A stretch of DNA of 64,000 nt from Mariniblastus sp. GTDB lineage: Bacteria; Planctomycetota; Planctomycetia; Pirellulales; Pirellulaceae. This document shows, piece by piece, positions 1,199-48,018 of the stretch. The stretch spans positions 19,600 through 83,599 of the forward strand of contig JAPKBL010000004.1 in assembly GCA_028823415.1 (NCBI GenBank). Direction: 5' to 3'. The first letter of the stretch is position 1. Every line of letters starts with the position of its first letter. A program made the position numbers and the translations under genes. The notes under the pieces are model-generated. The model did no database searches. It worked only from the letters and a program-made list of their open reading frames with translations, and had not been told where the DNA came from.

Positions 1199-2638
1199 AT
1201 GGATTACCGACCGAAAATTTTGATTGTCGAAGATCAAACTTCGATGCAACAATTACTCGAAGATTTTCTGGGCCCCGCTGGGTTTGAAATCACTTGTTGT
1301 GATTCTGCTACCGAGGCGTGTCAGTTACTCGGATTAGATTCCTCAGTGGTCACTTCGACGAATTTCGACTTCGGTACACCATCGGAGGACTCAATTGCGT
1401 CCGGATCGACTGAAATTCCGGAGTTCGAGCTGGTGCTGACGGATGTCAAAATGCCGGGGATGGACGGATTGGAATTTTGTCGGCGCATTAAGCAGCAGTT
1501 TGTTCATTTGCCGGTCATTGTGATGACTGCCTACGGGAGCCTTGAAACTGCCGTCGAAGCATTACGAGCCGGCGCGTTTGACTTTGTCACGAAACCGGTC
1601 GAGTTGGCTTTATTGAAAGCGTCTTTGATTCGAGCTGCGGAATACAACCGACTAAGAAATCGAATTCGCGTGCTGGAGTCGCAAATTCAGACCGAGACGT
1701 TTGATACGCTGATTGGTCAAAGCGATGTAATGCTTCGATTGAAAGAGCAACTGTCTCGCGTGGTCGATTCGCCGGCGGCGGTTTTGTTGACCGGTGAAAG
1801 CGGATCGGGCAAAGAAGTCGTCGCCCGAGCGCTCCACCAGCAGAGTCGGCGAGCGGACCAGCCGTTTGTCGCAGTCAATTGCGCGGCGCTGCCCGAATCG
1901 TTGTTGGAAAGTGAATTATTTGGTCACGTAAAAGGGGCCTTTACCGACGCAAATGCAGATCGGGTCGGGCTGTTTTTGCAAGCCAATGGTGGGACGTTAT
2001 TTTTGGATGAAATTGGCGAAATGCCGATCGGAATTCAACCCAAGCTGTTGCGCGCGTTGGAACAAAAAACGGTCCGTCCAGTTGGAGGTAAATCGGAACA
2101 GCCGTTTGACGTGCATATGATCGCCGCGACCAATCGAGACTTAGAATCCGCCATCGAACAGAAAACATTTCGAGAAGACTTGTATTACCGAATCAATGTA
2201 TTGGAACTCACGGTGCCACCGCTTCGAAGTCGAGGCACCGATGTACTTTTGATTGCGAACTATTTTCTGCAACAGTTCGTGGTATCCATGGATAAAAAAG
2301 TGGATAGTTTTGACGACGAGGTGCTCCATCAATTTCTTCAATACGACTGGCCCGGCAATGTTCGAGAATTGCGAAATGTCGTGCAGCGATCGGTGGTGTT
2401 GACGCAACAGGCGACGATCAATGCAGACGTTCTGCCGACCAAAATTTCAAATTATCAGTCGAGTAAATTAGTGATCGACGAGGGAGACAACCAGCCTCTC
2501 GATTCTCTGGAGGTGATTGAACGACGGTACATCAGATATGTGCTCGAGCGCACCGGCGGAAACAAGACGGAGGCAGCCAAAGTCCTCGGTCTAGATCGAA
2601 AGACGCTATACCGCCGACTCAAAGAAAAAGACGATTAG
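1199..2638 (+). CDS. Sigma54-dependent Fis-family response regulator (NtrC/AtoC-like)
   Basis: Receiver domain (ILIVEDQ, LVLTDVKMPGMDG, VMTAYGS, TKPV), AAA+ domain (GESGSGKEVVARALH, ELFGHVKGAFTDA, GGTLFLDEIGEMP), C-terminal Fis HTH (GNKTEAAKVLGLDRKTLYRRLKE). ORF track starts at TTG 1187; ATG 1199 is an alternative start. Confidence 0.95.
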   Translation: MDYRPKILIVEDQTSMQQLLEDFLGPAGFEITCCDSATEACQLLGLDSSVVTSTNFDFGTPSEDSIASGSTEIPEFELVLTDVKMPGMDGLEFCRRIKQQFVHLPVIVMTAYGSLETAVEALRAGAFDFVTKPVELALLKASLIRAAEYNRLRNRIRVLESQIQTETFDTLIGQSDVMLRLKEQLSRVVDSPAAVLLTGESGSGKEVVARALHQQSRRADQPFVAVNCAALPESLLESELFGHVKGAFTDANADRVGLFLQANGGTLFLDEIGEMPIGIQPKLLRALEQKTVRPVGGKSEQPFDVHMIAATNRDLESAIEQKTFREDLYYRINVLELTVPPLRSRGTDVLLIANYFLQQFVVSMDKKVDSFDDEVLHQFLQYDWPGNVRELRNVVQRSVVLTQQATINADVLPTKISNYQSSKLVIDEGDNQPLDSLEVIERRYIRYVLERTGGNKTEAAKVLGLDRKTLYRRLKEKDD

Positions 2639-2700
2639 CGAATTATCGTTTTCATTTACCGTCGACTTTCGTCATTGCATCCATCGTGGCTCAAACAGAA

Positions 2701-4188
2701 CTACGGTGGGGGGCGACCGGTAGGTATCCGAACCGTCATGGTTGTTCCTGCGCCTGGCTCGCTCTGGCATTCGATACTGCCACCGTGCTCTTCGATAATG
2801 CCATGCACGATCGAGAGCCCAAGTCCTGTGCCCGAGCCGACTTCCTTGCTCGTATAAAATGGCTCAAAAATCACATCGAGTTGGCTTTTCTCAATGCCCG
2901 AGCCATAGTCAATGATCTCGATTTTCCATTGGTTATCGACCGGTTGTGGATGGAGTTGGATGCCGACGGTCTGGTTTGCCGGTGAAGCATCGACCGCGTT
3001 GTCGATCAGATTCATGACAACCTGTTGAAGCTGATTGAAGTCAAAATTGGCTTCCGCGGGCTCTGCTGGCAAGGTCGCGGAAAGATGGATTTGCTGTTTA
3101 TCGGCCAAGGGTTGTATCAGTTCGACGGAGTGGTTGATGACCTCTCGCAAATCGTTTTTCGATTTTTGGCTTGGGCTTCGTCGAGAGAAATGCAGTAGTT
3201 TTTGAATGATCTCGGAGATTCGTTCCGATTCTGTTTTTACCGCGGTGGCATGTTTGGCAATTTGTTCAGGTGATCGATTGGGGTCGCTCAGGATCATTTC
3301 TGCGCGGCCGGAGATTACATTTAAAGGCGTACCGACTTCATGTGCAAAACCGGCGGCAAGCTGGCCTACGGTTTTTAATCGATCCGCATGACGCAGTTGC
3401 TCGATTGCATCGATTCGTTGGTGGGTTTCCTTTTCAATCGTCTGCTGTTGTTGACGAAGACGATCGCACATTTGATTCACAGCACCCGCCAGCTGCCCAA
3501 GTTCATCTTTGGAGTGAATTTCCAAATCGCTTGAGAAATCGCCTATTCCGACACGCTCCATTTTTTTCGTCAGTGCAGCCAGAGGCGTGGCGATCCAGCG
3601 AACGCCGGCAATCATGACGACTCCGATGCACATGAAGCCGGTCGCGACAATAATAAAAATTGCGGTAAACCAATTGGATCTCGACTGCGAATCCAGATCG
3701 TTTAGGGGTGTAGCGATTTCCACCGCCCCCTGCCGGCCATTTAGCATGACTGGAACGTAAGTAAAATATTTTCGCTTTCCGCCGCTGACGGCACCAATGG
3801 TGGAGACTGGTTGCCCGCCAGCATTCTCAATTACGGAAGGGGCGATTGGAGAGGTCGTCGCATTTTTGGTTTCGGTTTCCGGCCAAGTCCATCGAATGCG
3901 AGTTCCGTTGTTGGCAAACGTCCGGACCAATCGTTCGAAGTAAATATGTTTGCCGGTGTTAGCCGCGGTTTGAAAATCCGCTGTGTTTTGAATGGCATTG
4001 ACAGAGGAAGCAATAGCGCGGTGGCGCTTCTCGAGGCCGGCAAAAGACTGCATGCTGGCGAGTTGGCTGGCCATCATCGTGACAGCCGAAACTGCGATAA
4101 TGAACAACAAAATCAATTTAGCAGCAAGTTTCATTTTATCGAATCGTTTCGTGCAGGCGGAAAGCAAACGTCCGCCAGTGGTAGACAT
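2701..4188 (-). CDS. Membrane sensor histidine kinase (HAMP, HisKA, HATPase_c)
   Basis: N-terminal TM, second TM then HAMP-like segment, AAGFAHEVGTPLNVISGRAEM H-box, NLIDNAVDAS N-box, GSGTGLGLSIVHGIIEEHGG G-box. Internal Met at 4134 (MKLAAKLILLF) may be the true start. Confidence 0.93.
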   Translation of the reverse strand: MSTTGGRLLSACTKRFDKMKLAAKLILLFIIAVSAVTMMASQLASMQSFAGLEKRHRAIASSVNAIQNTADFQTAANTGKHIYFERLVRTFANNGTRIRWTWPETETKNATTSPIAPSVIENAGGQPVSTIGAVSGGKRKYFTYVPVMLNGRQGAVEIATPLNDLDSQSRSNWFTAIFIIVATGFMCIGVVMIAGVRWIATPLAALTKKMERVGIGDFSSDLEIHSKDELGQLAGAVNQMCDRLRQQQQTIEKETHQRIDAIEQLRHADRLKTVGQLAAGFAHEVGTPLNVISGRAEMILSDPNRSPEQIAKHATAVKTESERISEIIQKLLHFSRRSPSQKSKNDLREVINHSVELIQPLADKQQIHLSATLPAEPAEANFDFNQLQQVVMNLIDNAVDASPANQTVGIQLHPQPVDNQWKIEIIDYGSGIEKSQLDVIFEPFYTSKEVGSGTGLGLSIVHGIIEEHGGSIECQSEPGAGTTMTVRIPTGRPPP

Positions 4189-4448
4189 GAGTATCAGGCG
4201 ATTGAGTCATCGGAAGCAGTCACAGCGATGGGGCTCTGGTTTATTCTACCCCGCAATCACGTCGCGCAATCCCAATTTGAATCGGTCTCACCAAAATTCG
4301 TTTCATTTGATGACGGTGTAGCATTTTGCCGCGCGCGGGGAATTAGGAAGCGCGACGGCGATTGCTGGGCCTGGCGAACGATTCACGAATAGCCATGTTT
4401 TTAGGGATTTTTGATCTGATTTGCGTCCGTGGTGAATTTGGTGAGGTT

Positions 4449-4464
4449 TGGCACGGTGGTTGCA
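4449..4464 (+). promoter_or_regulatory. Sigma54 (RpoN) -24/-12 promoter
   Basis: TGGCACG-GTGG-TTGCA matches the consensus TGGCACG-N4-TTGCW exactly, GG/GC spacing correct; lies 40 bp upstream of ATG 4504, which has an AGGAGGG ribosome-binding site (4493-4499). Confidence 0.85.
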
Positions 4465-4503
4465 ACTATCTCTGGCTCGGGGGAATTTCAATAGGAGGGC
4501 AAG

Positions 4504-5949
4504 ATGCTTGAGTCAGGAAAAGAGTCGCTTAATGGGTCATTCCGCCATCACCAAAGTGAGAGATTATCTCATCAGTGGGAACCTACAGAATTTGCTCTCC
4601 CAATTGTCGATGGTCGCCGCATTCCCAGGACCGGCAAGGGACTGGGGCTGGTAGCGGTACTGGCCAATGATCGAATTGAGTTTAAATCCCCTCCCTCCAA
4701 ATCTGCAAGCTCTGATTCTCTGATTTTCAAGCGGAGGGTCGCCAAGTCGAAAACACCGCGTCCAAATCGGCCTGCCTGCGTGGCGGAATTTGATCTCTCC
4801 ACAAGTTCACGGCTTCTTGATCGTGATGAAGAACGCCAGTTGGCGAAGCGAATTTTTCGATATCGCCAGGCATTTCAAAGATTGGTTTTAAAGGAAGCTG
4901 ATGTCCTCGATCACTTGATTGGATTGATACGGCAATGGGCATCAGGTAATTCAAGAGTCGACTCTATCTGCAACCTGGGGCTTAGCGAGTTAAAGAAGCG
5001 AAAAAAAATTGAGCCGAAATTACGAGCAAGCATTCGCAAATTAGAACAACTATCCACCGAGCTGAGAGGGGAACGTCACGATGTTCAAAATCGGAGCCAT
5101 CGTAAAATTGTCGAGATCGTGGAGGCGTTGATGTTGCGTCCCAAGTGTTTCGAATCGGCTCCGTTTCGGGGAGCGCAGGCGATGAGAGTGCTTGGCGACT
5201 ACCAGTTACTTTGCCAAAAATTGATGTTGGCAAATGGACGGCTGGTGATCCAAGTGGCTCGCAAAATCTGCGGTAATTCGCAAATCCTTTCAGATATGAT
5301 TCAGGAGGGTTATTTTGGACTGATTCAAGCGGTCACAAAATTTGATCATCAATGTAATGTTCGATTTTCAACCTACGCGACTCCGTGGATTAAGCAGGCA
5401 ATTTTCGGATCTTTATCAAACGTTCAGCGAAATATTAGAGTTCCGGAAAATTTTCGATCTGCGCATCGCAAAGTAGTAAAAAAAATCGACGAAATTAGAA
5501 AACGGGGATTTGAGTTTACGGGACATGATTCCGGAACAGTCCTATCGTTGATCGCTGATGAGATGAAAATGTCTGCAGAAGATGTTGAACGCCACCTTCA
5601 AGTTCAGAGAGATACTTGTTCGCTGAACGCTTCGGGAAGTCGTTCCAGTTCGGTGGCCGATAGTCATCTGATTTCTGTGCTTGCCGATACGGCAAGCGTT
5701 GCCCCTGAATCGATGGCGATAGAAAAAGAAAAAAACCAACGCGTTCGTAAAATGTTGGCTCAATCGTTGACCTCTCGTGAGCGGGATGTCATCTCCCTTC
5801 GATTTGGATTTAGCGATGGGAATGGGAGATCATTTTCGGAGGTTGGCCGAGAGATGGGTTTGACTCGCCAACGCGTGTGTCAGGTCGAAAAGCAGGCTTT
5901 GGCCAAATTGGAACAAGTGACCGGAAAATGGGTCGCAGCCACCGCGTAG
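4504..5949 (+). CDS. RNA polymerase sigma70-family factor (RpoD/RpoS-like)
   Basis: Region 2 (NGRLVIQVARKI...MIQEGYFGLIQAVTKFDHQCNVRFSTYATPWIKQAI), region 3, region 4 (SLTSRERDVISLRFGF...SFSEVGREMGLTRQRVCQVEKQALAKLE). Confidence 0.93.
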   Translation: MLESGKESLNGSFRHHQSERLSHQWEPTEFALPIVDGRRIPRTGKGLGLVAVLANDRIEFKSPPSKSASSDSLIFKRRVAKSKTPRPNRPACVAEFDLSTSSRLLDRDEERQLAKRIFRYRQAFQRLVLKEADVLDHLIGLIRQWASGNSRVDSICNLGLSELKKRKKIEPKLRASIRKLEQLSTELRGERHDVQNRSHRKIVEIVEALMLRPKCFESAPFRGAQAMRVLGDYQLLCQKLMLANGRLVIQVARKICGNSQILSDMIQEGYFGLIQAVTKFDHQCNVRFSTYATPWIKQAIFGSLSNVQRNIRVPENFRSAHRKVVKKIDEIRKRGFEFTGHDSGTVLSLIADEMKMSAEDVERHLQVQRDTCSLNASGSRSSSVADSHLISVLADTASVAPESMAIEKEKNQRVRKMLAQSLTSRERDVISLRFGFSDGNGRSFSEVGREMGLTRQRVCQVEKQALAKLEQVTGKWVAATA

Positions 5950-6055
5950 AATTTAAGCTTGATTTCAACGGGGAGAGGATAGAAATTTGAGTTCAGAGGC
6001 AAACTGAGTTAGTATGCGATAGCCAATTCTAATTCCTATCGCCGATGTAATTTCT

Positions 6056-7600
6056 ATGATGAAAATAGACACGTGGATTTTGACAGTGGCCTTCTTGTTG
6101 CCTCTGTTGACCGAAATTTCGTATGCGGAAAAGCCTAACATCATCGTCATTTATACCGATGACCAAGGGTACGGTGATGCCAGTTGTTTGAATCCGGATG
6201 CTAAGTTTTTGACGCCCAATCTGGATAAGTTGGCGCGAGAGGGTGTCGCTTTTACCAACGGACATTCGAGCGATACGGTTTGCACTCCATCGCGTTATGG
6301 CCTGCTGACGGGTCGGTATTGTTGGCGGACGTCGAAAAAGACGGGCGTGATGCAGGCAGAAGGGGACTGCCTGATTGCAGCCGGACGGATGACGCTTGCG
6401 TCAATGCTTCGCGATCAAGGTTACGACACTGCCATGGTGGGCAAGTGGCATCTGGGCATGGACTTCCCCGGAACCTCGAAGGCTCGCGATTGGAGCCAAC
6501 CGGTCCAAGATATGCCGCTCGACAAGGGGTTTGATTACTTCTATGGGATTCCAGCGTCTTTAAATTACGGTGTTTTAGCTTGGTTTGAAGGCCGGCACGC
6601 GAAAATTCCACCGACGGTTTACACGGCCAAAAAACCGAACAAGCGTCATATGGATTACCGGATCGAGCCGCCCTATCAAGACTCTCCCGAGGGAACTCAA
6701 AAAGCCCTCGGTAAACCGGGTATGGAGATTGCCTCGGATTTTATTGACAACCAGTGTTTAACGCGATTTACAGACACCGCGATTAGCTGGATGGATGCGA
6801 AACAGGATCGCACAGAATCGGGCAAGCCATTCTTTTTGTACCTCCCGTTTACCTCGCCGCATTATCCAGTTTGCCCGCTGCCTGAATTTTGGGGCCAAGG
6901 CGACTGTGGAGGGTATGGCGAGTTTGTGATCGAGACCGATCACCATGTCGGTCGGATTTTGTCGTTTCTAAAAAAATCGGGACTCGATCAAAATACGATG
7001 GTAATTTTTACCAGCGACAATGGTCCGGAGAATTCGTGGAAAAAACGAATTACCGATTTCAGCCATCGCAGTAACGGTAATTATCGCGGTGGCAAAAGAG
7101 ACATTTACGAAGGCGGGCATCGCGTGCCGTTCTTTATACGCTGGCCCGAGGGCATTAAGAATCCGGGCCGCACCACGAATGAGTTGGTGGGACAAGTCGA
7201 TATTTTGGCGACGATCGCAGAACTAATTGGAGCTGAATTACCTTTTAATGCTGGCGAGGATAGTCAGAGTTTTGCGTCAATCTTGACGCAACCCAAAATA
7301 GCTCATCAACGTGTGCCCCTAATCAATCACTCTGCTTCCGGACGTTTTTCGATTACCGAAGGTGATTGGAAATTAATTTTGCCCCATCGAAAAAACAAAC
7401 GAGAACTCTATCAGTTAACGGTAGATCCAAGTGAGCAGAATAATGTGTTGGAAGATCATCCGGAGATAGCACAAAGTCTCGAAAAGAAAATAACACAAAT
7501 CGTTTGTCAGGGTCGGTCCACGCCCGGCTTGCGGCAGTCTAACGATACGGGTTATTGGAAGGATCTGAATTGGATTCAGCCGAAAAAATACGGCCAGTGA
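6056..7600 (+). CDS. Secreted sulfatase (arylsulfatase-like)
   Basis: Signal peptide, PNIIVIYTDDQGYGDASC, CTPSRYGLLTGRY (FGly C-x-P-x-R), GKWHLG, FTSDNGPE. Confidence 0.95.
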   Translation: MMKIDTWILTVAFLLPLLTEISYAEKPNIIVIYTDDQGYGDASCLNPDAKFLTPNLDKLAREGVAFTNGHSSDTVCTPSRYGLLTGRYCWRTSKKTGVMQAEGDCLIAAGRMTLASMLRDQGYDTAMVGKWHLGMDFPGTSKARDWSQPVQDMPLDKGFDYFYGIPASLNYGVLAWFEGRHAKIPPTVYTAKKPNKRHMDYRIEPPYQDSPEGTQKALGKPGMEIASDFIDNQCLTRFTDTAISWMDAKQDRTESGKPFFLYLPFTSPHYPVCPLPEFWGQGDCGGYGEFVIETDHHVGRILSFLKKSGLDQNTMVIFTSDNGPENSWKKRITDFSHRSNGNYRGGKRDIYEGGHRVPFFIRWPEGIKNPGRTTNELVGQVDILATIAELIGAELPFNAGEDSQSFASILTQPKIAHQRVPLINHSASGRFSITEGDWKLILPHRKNKRELYQLTVDPSEQNNVLEDHPEIAQSLEKKITQIVCQGRSTPGLRQSNDTGYWKDLNWIQPKKYGQ

Positions 7601-33017: not shown

Positions 33018-33608
33018 ATGACAATACCGAGGGCATCAACATTGGACAAATCAAATTCCCAGGAAGATCGCTATCATCGTTTTGTGGGGTTACTCGCCCG
33101 AAACGATCAGGCGATTCGTCGCTTTATTCGTTCGCTACTGCCATCGAACCAGGGGGTCGATGACGTGGTTCAAGAAACGGCGCTGGAGTGTTGGCGGAAA
33201 TTTTCTGATTTTGAATCAGGCGACTCCAGTCACCCAGATCAAGTTCAAGGAAGCGATGAGTTCATTCGTTGGGCCTGCGTCGTTGCGAGGTTTAAGGTCA
33301 TGAGTTGCCAGCGGGACTGGGCGCGCGACCGATTAGTCTTCAGAGAGCATATTCTTGAGCAGCTGGCTGACGATGCATTCGAGCAAATGGAAAAGCGTGA
33401 TTTGGAACGGATGGCCATTGAGCGGTGCTTGAGTCAGCTCGTTGTGGAATCACAGCGCCTTTTATTGAGTGTGTATCGACCTGGCGATTCCGTGAAGCGG
33501 ATTGCTAAGGAAAATGGTGAAAAATCACGTCGTCTGTACAGCAAAATGAATGGGCTTCGAAAACAATTGCTGGCTTGTGTTGAACGTCGTCTGGCCGAGG
33601 AATCTTAA
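33018..33608 (+). CDS. ECF-like RNA polymerase sigma factor (planctomycete/verrucomicrobial subfamily)
   Basis: IRRFIRSLLPSNQGVDDVVQETALECWRKF (region 2), RLLLSVYRPGDSVKRIAKENGEKSRRLYSKMNGLRKQLLACVERRL (region 4). Confidence 0.88.
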   Translation: MTIPRASTLDKSNSQEDRYHRFVGLLARNDQAIRRFIRSLLPSNQGVDDVVQETALECWRKFSDFESGDSSHPDQVQGSDEFIRWACVVARFKVMSCQRDWARDRLVFREHILEQLADDAFEQMEKRDLERMAIERCLSQLVVESQRLLLSVYRPGDSVKRIAKENGEKSRRLYSKMNGLRKQLLACVERRLAEES

Positions 33609-35309
33609 ATGAACGAAGAGATTGAAAAACTAATTTTTCGCGCGATTGACGGAGCGATTTCACAGGATGAATTCAATCGTCTCCAAGATGTGTTAGAAGT
33701 AGACGAGGATGCGAGGGTTTTTTATACCAAAATGCTATCTCTCGACCAGTCGGTGTCAGACATTGCAGAATCAGCCAGAGGCGAGGCCGTCGATCGGCCG
33801 GAAGTCCATTGGAATTCGCTTGCGGGAGTCGATTCGGAGACAGATTCTTCATTGCGAGGGCATTTGCTGACTTACATTTCGATTGCAGCCAGTGCGGTTG
33901 TTTTGACGACCCTTGCGTTTTACTTTACGCGACCCTGGAGTGGGCCAGAGATCGTCCGAGTTCGAGAGGTTGAGGTTGCTCCGTTGAGCTCCGAAAAGAA
34001 CGGAGTCGCTGAAGTTGTCCAGCGAATAGACTGTGTTTTGGAAAACGAAAAATGGAGTACTTCTAGCTCTTCCTTCGAAGCGGGACAGTCTATTGTTTTG
34101 CTTGAGGGAGTTGTTGTTGTTGAGTTCCGGAAAGGTGCCAGGGTCACGTTGGAGGGGCCGGCCAATCTTGAGTTTTTATCGGACAATAGCGGTTTCCTTC
34201 AGTCGGGAAAGTTGACTGCGGTGATTCCAGATTCGGCAATCGGGTTTGAGATATTAACCCCGAGTGGCCGACTGATTGATCATGGAACTGAGTTTGGTGT
34301 GAGCGTTGATCCCAACGGCGATACCGAAACTCATGTTTTCAAGGGAGAGGTCGAATTAATTGCAAACCATGCCAAGACTCAAGAACTAGATCCGAATTCT
34401 GGCAGTCAGCGCGAGTTCGGAAGTCAGCGTTTAACGGATGCGATGGGACTGCGGTTCAAGAGAGAAGGGAATGTTGCGGCGGAGGTAATTGAGGCCAACC
34501 CAAGCCAGTTCATCCGGACTTCGATTGTTGATCGCCAGCGCGTCAAAAATCGAACCGAGATCACGGAATTGGTTGATGAAGAGCATTTGATGATGTGGTT
34601 TGAAGCGGGACAGGGAGTCCAGAGAGATTCCAAGGGCCGGGTGATTTCATGGGAAAATCTAGCTCAAAGCCAAGCTGATCGTGCAAATCAAGAACTAGAA
34701 TCATCGGCTTGGCAAGTCAATGCAGACCGTCGTCCCGGGTGGTCCGAGAGTGGTCTTGGAGGTTTTCCCGCCGTTCGATTCGGTGGCTTCGAGAGCAAGG
34801 AATTCTTAGCAACAACCCCACTGCGATTGAAAGCCGATGCGACGGCATTGGTGGTTTGTCAATTTGATCCGCTTGAAGAAATTGGCTACGGCCATCTTTT
34901 GGTTTTAGGGGGGCAAACGAAATTTGTGTTAGAGCGTCGTGAAAAAAGCGAGGCGGGGAGTTATACCTGGTCCTGGCAGAACAAAAACGTGCCGCCGTTT
35001 CGGATGGAGGCGCTGAAAAATGTAAAGCCGACAACCTCCCATGAGCCCCAGATTTGTGCGGTGCGTTATAGTGTCGAGCAAGATATTTTCGAGCTATCTG
35101 TCAACGGTGAAGCCGTGGCCGAAGGAGATCCAATCGGCAGTTTAGCGGTAAACTCATCTCAAGTGATCGGGTGTGGGCATCATCGGAATCGGTTCTTTTT
35201 TAAAGGACAAATTGCCGAAATCGTGATATACGATCGAGCATTGAATCAAGAAAAGTTTAATCAGGTTACTGAATCTCTAATGCAAAAATATAGGATTCAA
35301 GCTCGATAA
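33609..35309 (+). CDS. FecR-domain transmembrane protein with C-terminal LamG/concanavalin-like domain
   Basis: Directly follows the ECF gene; single TM (LTYISIAASAVVLTTLAFYF); FecR core (GFEILTPSGRLIDHGTEFGVSVDPNGDTETHVFKGEVEL); LamG-like C-terminus (FFKGQIAEIVIYDRALNQEKFNQVTESLMQKY). Confidence 0.87.
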   Translation: MNEEIEKLIFRAIDGAISQDEFNRLQDVLEVDEDARVFYTKMLSLDQSVSDIAESARGEAVDRPEVHWNSLAGVDSETDSSLRGHLLTYISIAASAVVLTTLAFYFTRPWSGPEIVRVREVEVAPLSSEKNGVAEVVQRIDCVLENEKWSTSSSSFEAGQSIVLLEGVVVVEFRKGARVTLEGPANLEFLSDNSGFLQSGKLTAVIPDSAIGFEILTPSGRLIDHGTEFGVSVDPNGDTETHVFKGEVELIANHAKTQELDPNSGSQREFGSQRLTDAMGLRFKREGNVAAEVIEANPSQFIRTSIVDRQRVKNRTEITELVDEEHLMMWFEAGQGVQRDSKGRVISWENLAQSQADRANQELESSAWQVNADRRPGWSESGLGGFPAVRFGGFESKEFLATTPLRLKADATALVVCQFDPLEEIGYGHLLVLGGQTKFVLERREKSEAGSYTWSWQNKNVPPFRMEALKNVKPTTSHEPQICAVRYSVEQDIFELSVNGEAVAEGDPIGSLAVNSSQVIGCGHHRNRFFFKGQIAEIVIYDRALNQEKFNQVTESLMQKYRIQAR

Positions 35310-41676: not shown

Positions 41677-43218
41677 ATGAGGACGAGAAAACAATCTGTC
41701 CCGGATCCCGGTTCGACTCCACTGGTTCAGCCCTCGCCGGAGTTGCCCGTCAAGCGCGCGGATGCCCGTGGCAAGCGAATGCGGTGGTGGCTGGTTGTTT
41801 CATTGTGCGTTGCGGTGTTGGCATGCTTGGTGGTTGTTCAGGGGTCGGCACTTCCGCTGGGCAGCTCAGGGCGTGACGGGGCGTTGACCCACCAAATCCA
41901 GTTCGGCGATCTTGTCGTTTCGGTGATGGAGCAGGGGACCGTTGAGAGTGCTAACAATACTGAAATTAAATGTCAGGTGCGCGGTTACAGCACGGTCATT
42001 CAAGTGGTCGATGGCGGAACGATCGTGGAACCCGGGGATGAACTGGTGTTGCTCGACACGAAGCGGTTGGAAGACGAAATCGGAAAAGCGACGACCGACG
42101 CACACTCGGCCAAGGCCGACCTCGAACGCTCCAAGGCCGATGTTGCCAACGCAGAAATTGCAATTGACGCGTATCTCAAGGGAACTTATTTGACGCATTT
42201 GGAGGCTTTGGAAAAGCAACTAGCAATGGCGGAAGCCGAGTATGATACAGCTCATACGGAGATGGGGCACGCTGAAGCGATGTTTCGGCGCGGTTATGTG
42301 AATCAATATGATATCCAGAGCAAGCGATTCTCATTGGAGCAGGCGGAACTTGGTTTAAAAGTCTGTCAAACTGCGATTGATGTTTTGAATAACTATACCA
42401 AAGAGATGCGGCTCGAAACCTTACGAGGAAACTTGCGAGCGGGCAAAGCGAAACTCCAGGCAGATATCGCAGGCTTGGCGATGGACGAGGGCCGGCGGGA
42501 CCGCGTCATTGGAGAAAAACAATATTGTGTCATTCGGGCAAAGCGTGGCGGACTGGTCATCTTTCCATTGGCGGAGGCGTGGAAGGAACGGCCGGATATT
42601 GCTGCCGGTGCAACGGTGCGGAAAGATCAGGTTCTCTTGTTGATGCCGGACTTGTCACAAATGCAAGTAAAAGTTGGGATTCATGAAGCGCTCGTTGATC
42701 GTGTTCAAGTTGGTCAAACGGCGGTCGTAACGCTTCCGGATTTTTCGATTGAAGGAGAGGTTGTGTTTATCGCTTCTGTCGCAAAACCGGCTGGGTGGTG
42801 GACTGGGAATATGGTCAAGTATGACACGGTTATAAAAATACCTGCCTCGGAAGATTTAAAACCGGGGATGAGTGCGGAGATTGAAGTGGTTCTTTCGGAA
42901 TACAAAAACGTTCTGCTAGTTCCCGTTTCCGCCGTTGTTGAAACAGGCCGTTTTTTTCTTTGTTGGGTAAAGAACAGGGCGGGCGAAATTGAGCAGCGCG
43001 TCTTGACGCTAGGCGACAGTGATGATGTTTTCATTGTCGTCAAATCCGGGCTCAGTGAAGGTGACGACGTTTTGTTAAATCCCCTGGACTGGCTTGAAGA
43101 GGCGCAACGCGAGGCGTTTCGGGATTTTGAGCCATCGGGCCGGTTATCCGAGGATACGGACGGTGAAATATCGGGCGATAATTTGCCCGGTGCCGAAGGG
43201 GGTCAAGGTGTTTTTTAG
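41677..43218 (+). CDS. HlyD/MacA-like periplasmic adaptor (copy 1)
   Basis: N-terminal TM, NNTEIKCQVRGYSTVIQVVDGGTIVEPGDELVLLD, coiled coil, VHEALVDRVQVGQTAVVTLPDFSIEGEV, LKPGMSAEIEVVLSEYKNVLLVPVSAV. Confidence 0.9.
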   Translation: MRTRKQSVPDPGSTPLVQPSPELPVKRADARGKRMRWWLVVSLCVAVLACLVVVQGSALPLGSSGRDGALTHQIQFGDLVVSVMEQGTVESANNTEIKCQVRGYSTVIQVVDGGTIVEPGDELVLLDTKRLEDEIGKATTDAHSAKADLERSKADVANAEIAIDAYLKGTYLTHLEALEKQLAMAEAEYDTAHTEMGHAEAMFRRGYVNQYDIQSKRFSLEQAELGLKVCQTAIDVLNNYTKEMRLETLRGNLRAGKAKLQADIAGLAMDEGRRDRVIGEKQYCVIRAKRGGLVIFPLAEAWKERPDIAAGATVRKDQVLLLMPDLSQMQVKVGIHEALVDRVQVGQTAVVTLPDFSIEGEVVFIASVAKPAGWWTGNMVKYDTVIKIPASEDLKPGMSAEIEVVLSEYKNVLLVPVSAVVETGRFFLCWVKNRAGEIEQRVLTLGDSDDVFIVVKSGLSEGDDVLLNPLDWLEEAQREAFRDFEPSGRLSEDTDGEISGDNLPGAEGGQGVF

Positions 43219-44635
43219 ATCGTTGTCCTCGTTCATCCGTTTTCTGTTGGTCGCAGCGGTGGTTATCGCGGTTCCTGCCTACGTAATGTATCGAGCCAAT
43301 CAATCGACTTACGGTGAGATATTGGTCGAAGCGGATAAGTTACCGGTTCATACGGTTGGTCGGGGTGATTTAAGAGTCACGGTGATTGAGCAGGGAGGCC
43401 TTGAAAGTTCGGAGAATACCGAAGTGAAGTGCCTTGTCCGTGGAGAAAATACCGTTAATTCCGTGATTGAAAACGGAACACACGTTGAAGCAGGGGACGT
43501 CCTTGTTCGACTAGACACCCTGGCAATCGAAGACGCAATCAACGAGCGGTCAAAGTATGCGTTTTGGTCACAATCGGCGGTCGAACGATCAAGTGCGTTA
43601 GTCGCGAGATCAAAATTGGCAGTCTCCGAATACCTTGATGGTCGCTACATCTCACAGTTAATGACATTAGAAAAAGATTTGGCCATTGCAGAGTCGAATT
43701 ATTTGATGAGGGTTAATTTACATGGGCACGCTGAAAAATTATCCAAACGAGGGTTTGCCCATGCTTTTGACGTCGAGCAAAGAAAGGTCGCGGTGGAGCA
43801 GGCCAAGCTAGAGGTCGAGTCGCAGAAGAATCAAATAGAAGTGTTAAAAAAATACACCAAAGCAATGGAGCTAAAAACTCTCGAGGGTAATTTGAAAGCG
43901 GCAGAGGCCGATCATGCTGCCAACCAAGAGAGAGCAATTTTAGATAAGAAGCGACGTGACTTAGCTAAATCAGAATTTGAATTGTGCGTCATTAAATCAG
44001 ACAAATCGGGGATGGTAATTTTCCCGTCCGCTGCCGCTTGGAAGTCTTCTCCTGATGTCACCGAGGGCGCGACCGTTCATAAAAATCAAGTGTTGCTGTT
44101 AATGCCGGATCTCCAGAAAATGCAAGTAAAAGTCGGGATTCACGAGTCGATTGTGGACCGGGTTAAGCTTGGCATGTTAGCGAAAGTTTCGATTCCCGAC
44201 AGTGAAATTGAAGGCGAGGTGATTTCAGTAGCCTCGATCGCCCGCCCTGCCGGTTGGTGGACTGGCAACATGGTCAAATACGATACGATCATCAAATTGC
44301 CCGAAGGAACGACGGGGCTCAAGCCCGGCATGAGCGCGGAAGTCGAAATCGTTTTGTCGGAATACAAAGCTGTTTTGAAGTTGCCGGTTTCCGCTGTTTT
44401 GGAGACCAGCCAAGAGTCGCTATGTTGGGTCAAGTTGGCCGATTCAATTCAGCGGCGGGTGATTGAAGTTGTGGAGAGTAATGAGGTCTATGTGGTTGTC
44501 AAGCGAGGAGTCGCGGTAGGTGAAGAGGTTGTGCTCGATCCGGTTGCGTTTGTGCGGGAAGCTCAATTAGAGGCGATTAAGATCGTCGACGAAGAGCTCG
44601 AAAATGCCCCGAAGGAGTCGATTGCCGATGACTGA
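43208..44635 (+). CDS. HlyD/MacA-like periplasmic adaptor (copy 2, paralogous to copy 1)
   Basis: NTEVKCLVRGENTVNSVIENGTHVEAGDVLVRLD, GIHESIVDRVKLGMLAKVSIPDSEIEGEV, ARPAGWWTGNMVKYDTIIKLPEGTTGLKPGMSAEVEIVLSEYKAVLKLPVSAV. ORF track start 43094 overlaps copy 1 by 125 bp; in-frame GTG at 43208 (VFFRSLSSFIRFLLVAAVV) is a more plausible start. Confidence 0.87.
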   Translation: MFFRSLSSFIRFLLVAAVVIAVPAYVMYRANQSTYGEILVEADKLPVHTVGRGDLRVTVIEQGGLESSENTEVKCLVRGENTVNSVIENGTHVEAGDVLVRLDTLAIEDAINERSKYAFWSQSAVERSSALVARSKLAVSEYLDGRYISQLMTLEKDLAIAESNYLMRVNLHGHAEKLSKRGFAHAFDVEQRKVAVEQAKLEVESQKNQIEVLKKYTKAMELKTLEGNLKAAEADHAANQERAILDKKRRDLAKSEFELCVIKSDKSGMVIFPSAAAWKSSPDVTEGATVHKNQVLLLMPDLQKMQVKVGIHESIVDRVKLGMLAKVSIPDSEIEGEVISVASIARPAGWWTGNMVKYDTIIKLPEGTTGLKPGMSAEVEIVLSEYKAVLKLPVSAVLETSQESLCWVKLADSIQRRVIEVVESNEVYVVVKRGVAVGEEVVLDPVAFVREAQLEAIKIVDEELENAPKESIADD

Positions 44636-44684
44636 TCCCAAGTGGCAGTTGGGGGAGATCAAGGGGGAGGTGTGAGCCCACCCG

Positions 44685-46022
44685 TTGTTTTATTCCATGA
44701 TAAAACTTGATTTTCGCCGACCTTTGAAACTAGGTATCAAAAGCCTGTTGCTGCAAAAAATGCGAGCTGGATTAGCAGCACTTGGCATTTTTATCGGGAC
44801 GACGACTGTAATTTGGTTGGTCGCCATGGGCGAGGGAGTGAGTTATCGCGCTCAACAACAAATTCTTGAGCTCGGTGCGCGAAACATAATTATTCGCACG
44901 GTAGACCCGGGAGCAACGGACGAGTCGGCGAATAGCCGTGTGAAAAAATACGGTCTGTTGAGAAAGGATTTCGAACGAATTGTTTTGACCGTTCCGGGAG
45001 TCGAAGAGGTCATCGCGATGCGCGAAACTCGGTTCGAGTTGCGTTATAAGAATCGAAGCGTTGAAGCCAAGTTGGTCGGTTGTGGCCAAGAGCACCTCGA
45101 TATGAACCGGTTGAATATTGCGCGAGGTCGATGGATAAAGCCACGAGACAGCGGTCAAAAATTTATCGTGTTGGCGGACGAAACGGCAAAGCGATTGTTT
45201 CTTTATGAGAATCCCATCGGAAAAACAATTTGGGTGGGATCAGAGTTTTATACAGTGATTGGGCAAACGCGAGCGCGCGCCGCCTCAGCCGCGATCGGCG
45301 GGAGTCTCGATGCCCGAGACTATAACCTCGATGCTTACATTCCGTTAGAAACGTTTCGGATGCGAATTGGTGATTGGGTAATGCGGCGGACTTCAAGCGG
45401 AGGCTCGTTTCCTTTTGAAGGGGAAATTATTCAACTGAACCAAATCACGGTCAGCGTTGCCGATGTTGAAGATGTCGATAGCACAGCGGCGATAATCAAT
45501 TCGGATCTCAAGAAGTTTCATAAGACCAAAGATTATTCGGTCGTCGTTCCCAAAGAGCTTTTGGAACAGGCGGAACGTACGAAGGCGATGTTCAATGTGT
45601 TGCTCGTCGTGATTGCTGGAATTTCGTTGTTAGTCGGCGGGATTGGGATCATGAATATCATGCTGGCGACAGTCACCGAGCGGACTCGAGAGATCGGTAT
45701 TCGGCGGGCTTTGGGTGCAAACCAATTGGATATCATCCAGCAGTTTCTGGCAGAAACGCTTGTTCTGACGGGAGCTGGTGGATTGATGGGAGTTGTTTTT
45801 GGTTTGATGTGTCGCCCCTTGTTTAGATTGTTTATCTGGGTCATGTCCATCGCTTCCCCCGATATGCTGCCCCCGATTGTTTCGACGTTGGAACCACGGA
45901 TCGCGCCATGGTCGATCGGGTTATCCCTATTTATATCGGTGGGCGCGGGGGTGATTTTCGGGCTTTATCCCGCGATGAAGGCTGCCTCGATGGATCCAAT
46001 CGAAGCATTGAGGCATGAATAA
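44685..46022 (+). CDS. ABC transporter permease, FtsX/MacB type (no ATPase domain)
   Basis: MacB_PCD-like N-terminus; ISLLVGGIGIMNIMLATVTERTREIGIRRALGANQLDIIQQFLAETLVLTGAGGLMGVVFG; C-terminal FGLYPAMKAASMDPIEALRHE. Confidence 0.94.
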   Translation: MFYSMIKLDFRRPLKLGIKSLLLQKMRAGLAALGIFIGTTTVIWLVAMGEGVSYRAQQQILELGARNIIIRTVDPGATDESANSRVKKYGLLRKDFERIVLTVPGVEEVIAMRETRFELRYKNRSVEAKLVGCGQEHLDMNRLNIARGRWIKPRDSGQKFIVLADETAKRLFLYENPIGKTIWVGSEFYTVIGQTRARAASAAIGGSLDARDYNLDAYIPLETFRMRIGDWVMRRTSSGGSFPFEGEIIQLNQITVSVADVEDVDSTAAIINSDLKKFHKTKDYSVVVPKELLEQAERTKAMFNVLLVVIAGISLLVGGIGIMNIMLATVTERTREIGIRRALGANQLDIIQQFLAETLVLTGAGGLMGVVFGLMCRPLFRLFIWVMSIASPDMLPPIVSTLEPRIAPWSIGLSLFISVGAGVIFGLYPAMKAASMDPIEALRHE

Positions 46023-46078: not shown

Positions 46079-46657
46079 TTGTCCACGAAACGGCAATCAA
46101 ATTGGTTACTACCGATGAACGCAAAAGAAGAAGAAAAACGAGATCGGATTGTAAAGCTGGCATTCGAGTGTCGCGTTCAGTTGATCGCCTACGCCTACGC
46201 TTTGCTGGGCGATTATTCAACGGCGGATGATGCGGTTCAGGATGCGATGTTGACCGTCGTAAGAAAATACGACCAGTTTACTGAGGGCACTTCGGTTATG
46301 GCTTGGTGCCGTTCCATCGTTAGGCTGGAAACGCTTCGAATCAAACAAAAACAACACAAAGACAGAACGATTGCGATGAGATTACTCGAAGATTCGATCG
46401 ATTCTGCATTCGATGAATTTTTGTTGGCGGACCAACCGAGTCAGGGCGAATTAAGAAGAAAAGCGCTCATTAAATGTCTTGGCAATTTAACCAACCAAGG
46501 ACGGCAGATTTTGCAAAGTCGGTTCGCTGAAAGTTTAAGTTATGAGCAGATTGGCATAAAGATTGGGATGAGCTTGGAAGCAGTCCGAAAGTCACTTTAC
46601 CGTCAAAAAAAACAGCTGCGAGACTGTGTCGAAATTAATGTGAGAAACGTCGAATGA
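46079..46657 (+). CDS. ECF-like RNA polymerase sigma factor
   Basis: LIAYAYALLGDYSTADDAVQDAMLTVVRKYDQF, VMAWCRSIVRLETLRIKQK, LSYEQIGIKIGMSLEAVRKSLYRQKKQLRDCV. TTG start in track; ATG 46115 is an alternative. Confidence 0.88.
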   Translation: MSTKRQSNWLLPMNAKEEEKRDRIVKLAFECRVQLIAYAYALLGDYSTADDAVQDAMLTVVRKYDQFTEGTSVMAWCRSIVRLETLRIKQKQHKDRTIAMRLLEDSIDSAFDEFLLADQPSQGELRRKALIKCLGNLTNQGRQILQSRFAESLSYEQIGIKIGMSLEAVRKSLYRQKKQLRDCVEINVRNVE

Positions 46658-48018
46658 ATGATAAATTGAATTTGGAAGATTCTGAGCAGCAGCGACTGGA
46701 TTACTTGGTTTCGCTTCAGCTAAGCGATGAGCTTGGCGAAGCTGAGATCGAAGAGTTAGTTGAGTTGCTCAATTTGTTTCCCGAGGCCCGGCAGCGGTTG
46801 GTTGCCAGTAGCCTTTTTGACGTTCAGTTGGCCGATGTTTTACGAAGCGAGGCTTGCCAACATCCACGCTCTGCACCAATTCCTAATAGAAAAAGACGGT
46901 TCTCCGATTCTTGGAGTGGCGCGATCCTTGTGGCCGCAGCCTTGGTGCTGGCTCTCTTGGCGACGCAGTGGGTGCTTGATTCTCAAGAATCTGATCTGCC
47001 GGAAGATGAGCAAATTGCAAGAATTACTGGCTTGAGTGGTCCATTGCAGTGGACTGGAAATGGCGGTCTCGTTACTAGCGAGTTGATGGTTGGTGCCGAG
47101 TTGCCGGGCGGGACAATTGAAGGACAATCGCCAGAATCATGGTTTGAGTTAATGTTTAAAGACGGGTCGCGCGTGGTGATCGCGGGTCAATCGAGATTGG
47201 TATTTTCTGACCAAGGGCAAAAAGAGCTCCATTTAATCGAGGGCGGTTTTTCTGCGAGCGTGGAACCTCAACCGGCGGGTAAGCCGATGCTGGTTTACAC
47301 GCGAACCGCGGTGCTCGAAGTGCTCGGAACTGAATTTGAAGTTGCGTCAGAGTTGGCGTCAACGTTTTTAAATGTTACCAAAGGAAAGGTGCGTGTGAAA
47401 CGTTTGAGTGATGGTCAGTCACTCGACGTTCCGGCAAAACATCGAGTGACTGCGGCAGCGGATCAATTGTTCGAGTTGGAGCCGACGCCGGAGACAGTGG
47501 GTTTTTGGAAAGATCGCCTGGCGCGTGGCCCCAAGGGTGTTTACGGTACTTGGCAGCCTGGGGACGCGAGCGAAGGTCGCAAGCCTGCGGTTAAATCAAT
47601 TCCTCACACGGTCAAGGAGAGTGGAAAGACAATCTACTGCACTTCCCTGAGGGTTATCAGCGGCGATAGCCCACCGGTTGTGCTGCGTCGTGACAGTCAA
47701 TTGGTCGTCGAAGGCAGAATTGCTAAAAAGACTAAAAGCTTGTACGTAGGGGTGACGTTGCAACATCCCAACGGTGGTTTTGCAGGTCGATTTCAAATTC
47801 GCCTGTCGGGAAAAAGTTTGCCCATCAACGAAAAATTTGAACTAGATCTAGATGTCCAGAATTTCACACTGGATCCTTCATTGCGGGAGATTCAGCACAA
47901 GCTCGCGGATTCGCCGCTCGGTCTGATAGTTACCGATATATGGTGTCATACGCTTTGGGAGCCAGCGGGACTCGAGATTGAAGGCGTAGAGCTTTATGAA
48001 GCAGCATCAGCGGACTGA
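46654..48018 (+). CDS. FecR-domain transmembrane protein (putative anti-sigma factor)
   Basis: ATGA overlap with the ECF gene; one TM (AILVAAALVLALLATQWVL); FecR core (KPMLVYTRTAVLEVLGTEFEVASELASTFLNVTKGKVRVKRLSDGQSLDVPAKHRVTAA). Confidence 0.85.
   Translation: MNDKLNLEDSEQQRLDYLVSLQLSDELGEAEIEELVELLNLFPEARQRLVASSLFDVQLADVLRSEACQHPRSAPIPNRKRRFSDSWSGAILVAAALVLALLATQWVLDSQESDLPEDEQIARITGLSGPLQWTGNGGLVTSELMVGAELPGGTIEGQSPESWFELMFKDGSRVVIAGQSRLVFSDQGQKELHLIEGGFSASVEPQPAGKPMLVYTRTAVLEVLGTEFEVASELASTFLNVTKGKVRVKRLSDGQSLDVPAKHRVTAAADQLFELEPTPETVGFWKDRLARGPKGVYGTWQPGDASEGRKPAVKSIPHTVKESGKTIYCTSLRVISGDSPPVVLRRDSQLVVEGRIAKKTKSLYVGVTLQHPNGGFAGRFQIRLSGKSLPINEKFELDLDVQNFTLDPSLREIQHKLADSPLGLIVTDIWCHTLWEPAGLEIEGVELYEAASAD

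Follow-up and report, generated by a model that had tools for sequence, protein, structure and literature searches.

An exact-consensus sigma54 site before a sigma70-family gene points to a probable two-component stress circuit in Pirellulaceae

Why would a sigma70-family gene in a planctomycete lie behind an exact-consensus sigma54 promoter? The question is raised by a locus of Mariniblastus sp., found in a window of 64,000 nucleotides (the whole stretch of DNA that was analysed, contig C259 of the 5.45 Mb draft genome G000), where an earlier note, made from the letters alone, had singled out the site. The reading favored here, with a probability of about 0.78, is that the locus belongs to a Pirellulaceae two-component, sigma54-dependent stress circuit, probably of the envelope, with an alternative sigma70-family factor among the genes that it controls directly. 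This reading is drawn from sequence features, namely the promoter, a complete RpoN, the gene order, its co-conservation, an enhancer-like motif, and the alternative targets, which are the sigma factor, HtrA, and MoxR (Table 1).

Table 1. Features of the locus, in window coordinates
Feature	Position	Strand	Basis
NtrC-type sigma54 activator (receiver-AAA+-Fis HTH), GAFTDA loop	1187..2638	+	PF00158 (7.3e-71), PF00072, PF02954; conserved synteny
Membrane sensor histidine kinase (HAMP-HisKA-HATPase), oriented divergently to the sigma gene	2701..4188	-	Domain search; conserved synteny
Candidate enhancer (UAS) with the palindromic core GCATTTTGC within GTAGCATTTTGCCGC	4318..4332	.	Degenerate copy of the consensus GGGGCATTNTGCCCC
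Predicted sigma54 (-24/-12) promoter TGGCACGGTGGTTGCA	4449..4464	+	Exact consensus; near-fixed distance from ATG in 13 genomes
Shine-Dalgarno AGGAGGG	4493..4499	+	Sequence; conserved in alignment
sigma70-family factor of 481 aa with regions 2 and 4 and divergent -10/-35 recognition residues	4504..5949	+	PF04542 (1.1e-14), PF04545 (2.6e-15); TIGR02937 over cut-off; SigA alignment

The promoter sequence departs from TGGCACGN4TTGCW at no position in a pattern scan of the window, just as the earlier note had read it, and it carries GG at -24 and GC at -12 at the correct spacing. Since C-12 falls at position 4463, transcription would be expected to start near 4475. The match ends 39 bp upstream of the ATG of the sigma70-family gene, close to the 40 bp that had been estimated, and the ribosome-binding site judged good by eye is the Shine-Dalgarno sequence listed in Table 1. 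The impression that the window holds no comparable match also proved correct: a scan allowing up to two mismatches returned four matches, fewer than the roughly ten given by shuffles, and the three besides the exact one have two mismatches each. A missing rpoN gene had been named as fatal to the proposal; the genome encodes a complete RpoN of 541 aa (G000:C151), with AID, CBD (core-binding), and DBD (DNA-binding) all over cut-off. Consensus identity alone is weak evidence, only modestly above chance, because the genome contains 62 matches with at most one mismatch against 37 for a reversed control pattern; exact matches number five, little above expectation. By eye, the exact site on C72 precedes a flavin-monooxygenase-like gene, that on C144 a region of unclear content, and that on C231 a gene for a large repetitive secreted-type protein.

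Elsewhere, the window is rich in sulfatase and DUF1549/DUF1553-type genes, as planctomycete DNA typically is. At 41677-46022, two adjacent, similar HlyD-like membrane-fusion proteins, apparently a tandem duplication, are followed by a MacB-like permease (by eye).

The step from an isolated promoter match to a two-component sigma54 module follows from the adjacent activator and kinase, the upstream palindrome, and the sister loci with HtrA genes, none of which the earlier note had mentioned. The activator is a full NtrC-family protein, in which the receiver, sigma54 AAA+, and Fis HTH domains are all over cut-off. Together with the kinase and the sigma gene, it forms an adjacent set in 15 genomes, including two distant loci in other genera. 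In the kinase and activator trees, one 100/100 clade unites the window clade with the sigma-HtrA loci (L079/L080) and with the HtrA loci L166-L168, of which L168 was placed by the kinase tree only. The sigma54-contact loop of the window activator and its clade reads GAFTDA instead of GAFTGA. A compilation of natural variants counts this form among those that keep their function, with activation still possible in Desulfovibrio (PMC4641369). In laboratory work on NorR, however, this substitution gave a constitutive protein (PMC2941729), and the details of regulation may therefore be different here.

The window locus itself lacks an HtrA gene, and the relatives reveal what else stands in the same position. 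In three members of the genus without the sigma gene (G004, G010, and G026), the orthologous kinase faces an HtrA-type protease gene preceded by a sigma54 site, and the activator is also there where the contig reaches. In a second genus (L079/L080), a perfect sigma54 site and an exact GGGGCATTWTGCCCC stand upstream of an operon in which the sigma gene overlaps the HtrA gene, whose product carries trypsin and PDZ domains. In another genome (G034), an HtrA gene comes after a distant sigma gene, and the sigma54 site there is weak. Across loci, the same type of control region thus appears to drive an HtrA gene by itself, a sigma gene together with HtrA, or only a sigma gene.

Additionally, a MoxR-type AAA+ ATPase gene of the same genome (G000:C32:4883-6199; L001, L269) lies behind an exact sigma54 site, with a palindrome-like element 159 bp upstream. 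Scored as 12 or more of 14 matches, and leaving out G006 at a contig end, the enhancer of moxR is present in nine of ten scorable genus members with the kinase module and in none of six without it, a count uncorrected for relatedness; genomes lacking the module also have more diverged moxR copies. In G144, a moxR-like gene with both elements lies opposite the kinase/activator pair itself.

The product of the gene behind the promoter carries regions 2 and 4, with matches to both Pfam domains and a TIGR02937 score over cut-off, which bears out the earlier assignment to the sigma70 family; the RpoD, RpoS, and RpoH equivalog models all score far below their curated cut-offs (TIGR02394, for example, 142.9 versus 378.7). 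In an N-terminal profile search, the family was confined to 15 genomes (E <= 2e-49), and the next matches, at 6e-17 and weaker, were generic planctomycete sigma factors. This sharp score gap indicates a narrowly distributed sigma factor and rules out a wider conserved sigma family. In alignment with SigA, WWIRQAITR of region 2.4 becomes PWIKQAIFG (first position read from the aligned TWWI/TPWI) and TRERIRQIEAKAL of region 4.2 becomes TRQRVCQVEKQAL. Because these residues diverge, the promoter specificity of the factor is probably altered. The changed promoter-contact residues would also suit a different account, in which the sigma gene is a direct target only and encodes a decaying or weakly active factor with no distinct regulon. 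The pace of evolution fits such decay, given that identity is 70-77% for the sigma protein, 84-88% for the kinase, and 90-93% for the activator, as does the absence of the gene from the three genomes that have the kinase and HtrA. However, the frame is open with regions 2 and 4 in 13 of 13 orthologs and the core residues are invariant, and this account is unlikely.

Also considered and rejected was the idea that planctomycete sigma factors are generally under sigma54 control: a promoter scan of sigma-paralog loci, which left out 13 of them, found only two sites within 2.5 points of the maximum of 17.1, both exactly at that limit (14.6) and both with the first base of the -24 element altered. 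By eye, the window contains, at 33018-35309 and again at 46079-48018, a short putative ECF-like sigma gene with a gene for a FecR-like membrane protein after it. Also by eye, the sigma gene in G024 is directly followed by a gene for a MoxR-like ATPase and by one more gene (L076, 4778-5797 and 3710-4606), possibly another link between this sigma gene and MoxR.

The predicted binding site of the activator is the candidate enhancer, 131 bp upstream of the sigma54 site. It lies in a block at about 4315-4350 that is the best conserved intergenic stretch in an alignment of eight close orthologs, with 32 of 36 columns invariant. In most sister loci, a palindrome of the form GGGGCA-N3-TGCCCC precedes the sigma54 site (-77 to -208), in copies such as GGGGCATTATGCCCC, GGGGCATTTTGCCCC, GCGGCATTATGCCCC, GTGGCATTTTGCCAC, and similar. 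In about half of the loci, the copy is almost never matched by dinucleotide shuffles. The window copy has 11 of 14 matches, and 18 of 500 shuffles were as good, so this match alone is weak; copies in the closest relatives are also weaker, and the palindrome was not found at four loci (L188, L191, L193, and L194). Across the genome, a palindrome search allowing two mismatches gave 21 matches against 16 for a control, only two of which precede a correctly placed sigma54 site, namely those at the HtrA gene on C202 and the moxR gene on C32; the exact sigma54 sites on C72, C144, and C231 had no match in this search. The longer enhancer motif is unique in the genome. Position and symmetry are as would be expected for the site of a Fis-type activator, and the predicted activator-target link is well supported by these sequence comparisons.

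The C202 match belongs to a paralogous module of the same genome (G000:C202, L165 about 1920-6670), comprising a kinase, an activator with a GAFTGA loop, a sigma54 site, and an HtrA protease, which falls outside the 100/100 clade. Its enhancer, GCGGCATTATGCCCC, is closely similar to those of this clade, which makes it uncertain which activator serves which target. Sigma54 activators can act in trans, and the promoter could accordingly be real and sigma54-dependent yet driven by another activator, such as the C202 paralog, with the neighboring pair acting elsewhere. This is distinctly unlikely, since kinase, activator, and sigma gene stay linked across genera and the enhancer is kept at htrA and moxR in genomes where only this clade's pair was found.

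Control by the neighboring pair presupposes that the promoter itself is genuine, and its conservation argues strongly that it is. In every one of the 13 genomes that have a clear ortholog, the ATG of the sigma gene is preceded at 50-59 bp by a -24/-12 element in which TGG and GC never vary, as exemplified by TGGCACGGTGGTTGCA, TGGCACGATGGTTGCT, and TGGCATGATCGTTGCA. In an eight-genome alignment, 10 of 16 promoter columns are invariant, compared with 26 of 98 in the spacer just upstream. A second genus, with about 40% protein identity, retains a perfect match, TGGCACGGGGGTTGCT, and the sigma54 site is weak at the two most distant loci (L081 and L190). Despite the genome-wide counts given above, which sit only modestly above expectation and control, a chance consensus match, the gene being transcribed from a sigma70-type promoter at another place, is scarcely credible and is rejected on the conserved position of the site in 13 genomes, beside a sigma54 activator gene and below a motif that matches that of the sister loci. 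The site is thus very likely a working sigma54 promoter, and the central proposal of the earlier note holds up.

In the proposed circuit, the membrane kinase would sense a signal, probably envelope or protein-folding stress, and would phosphorylate the NtrC-type activator, which is predicted to bind the palindrome around 4318-4332. DNA looping and ATP hydrolysis would then allow RNA polymerase-sigma54 to open at the promoter, and the sigma70-family product may in turn redirect core polymerase to a further set of genes. Activators of this class would also directly control HtrA-type proteases and the MoxR ATPase gene. The signal is the least certain step of the model, suggested by the HtrA and MoxR targets and the membrane location of the kinase. 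We lean slightly toward a more specific version, an undescribed Pirellulaceae envelope-stress system in which one sensor/activator pair acts on HtrA and MoxR directly and on a second tier through a dedicated, fast-evolving sigma70-family factor, with repeated gain or loss of the sigma gene at the position between sigma54 promoter and HtrA gene.

To our knowledge, cascades from sigma54 to a sigma70-family factor are firmly established in few bacteria, with Borrelia as the standard case. The Rrp2-RpoN-RpoS pathway of Borrelia burgdorferi resembles the present locus in that an NtrC-type response regulator activates the sigma54 promoter of a sigma70-family sigma gene (PMC2940757, PMC3037356). It differs in that here the activator, kinase, and sigma gene share one locus with a candidate palindromic enhancer, the sigma factor scores below the RpoS cut-offs and is not RpoS, sister loci couple to HtrA, and the phylum is different. 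The first step of a Borrelia-type cascade, from sigma54 to an alternative sigma gene, is supported by sequence at this locus.

Other systems share single parts of the arrangement. ZraSR, a known envelope and metal stress system, and AtoSC likewise pair a kinase with a receiver-AAA+-Fis activator, whereas here the loop is GAFTDA rather than GAFTGA, the target is a sigma factor, and zinc sensing has no support. The window pair scores below the ZraR, AtoC, NtrC, and ZraS cut-offs (NCBIfam ZraR 370 versus 760 bits, ZraS 156 versus 479). In E. coli, sigmaE and Cpx control degP, a similar envelope-stress output through an HtrA/DegP protease, but the regulator families differ and the E. coli case operates without sigma54. 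A literature search, with most subscription papers and a 2004 survey of Pirellula activators outside its scope, found no description of this locus. A link to the V. cholerae RavA-Zra2 system (PMC10848872) was set aside, its ZraR2 being CpxR-like. In a 2025 survey of 1,628 genomes, sigma70/sigma32 genes (COG0568) are among the sigma54-associated genes (PMC12316311), and a sigma54-driven sigma gene is therefore not categorically new; neither MoxR nor HtrA turned up in a search of its text by name or COG number, nor did that search reveal this Pirellulaceae locus.

The predicted wiring is a variant of a rare but known two-step design, built from different parts than those of Borrelia. The biology of sigma54 in planctomycetes has so far been mostly computational, and this set of loci gives the group a predicted enhancer motif and regulon for sigma54. 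With HtrA alone, sigma plus HtrA, and sigma alone, the replicated loci offer a test of how a sigma factor enters an existing stress circuit.
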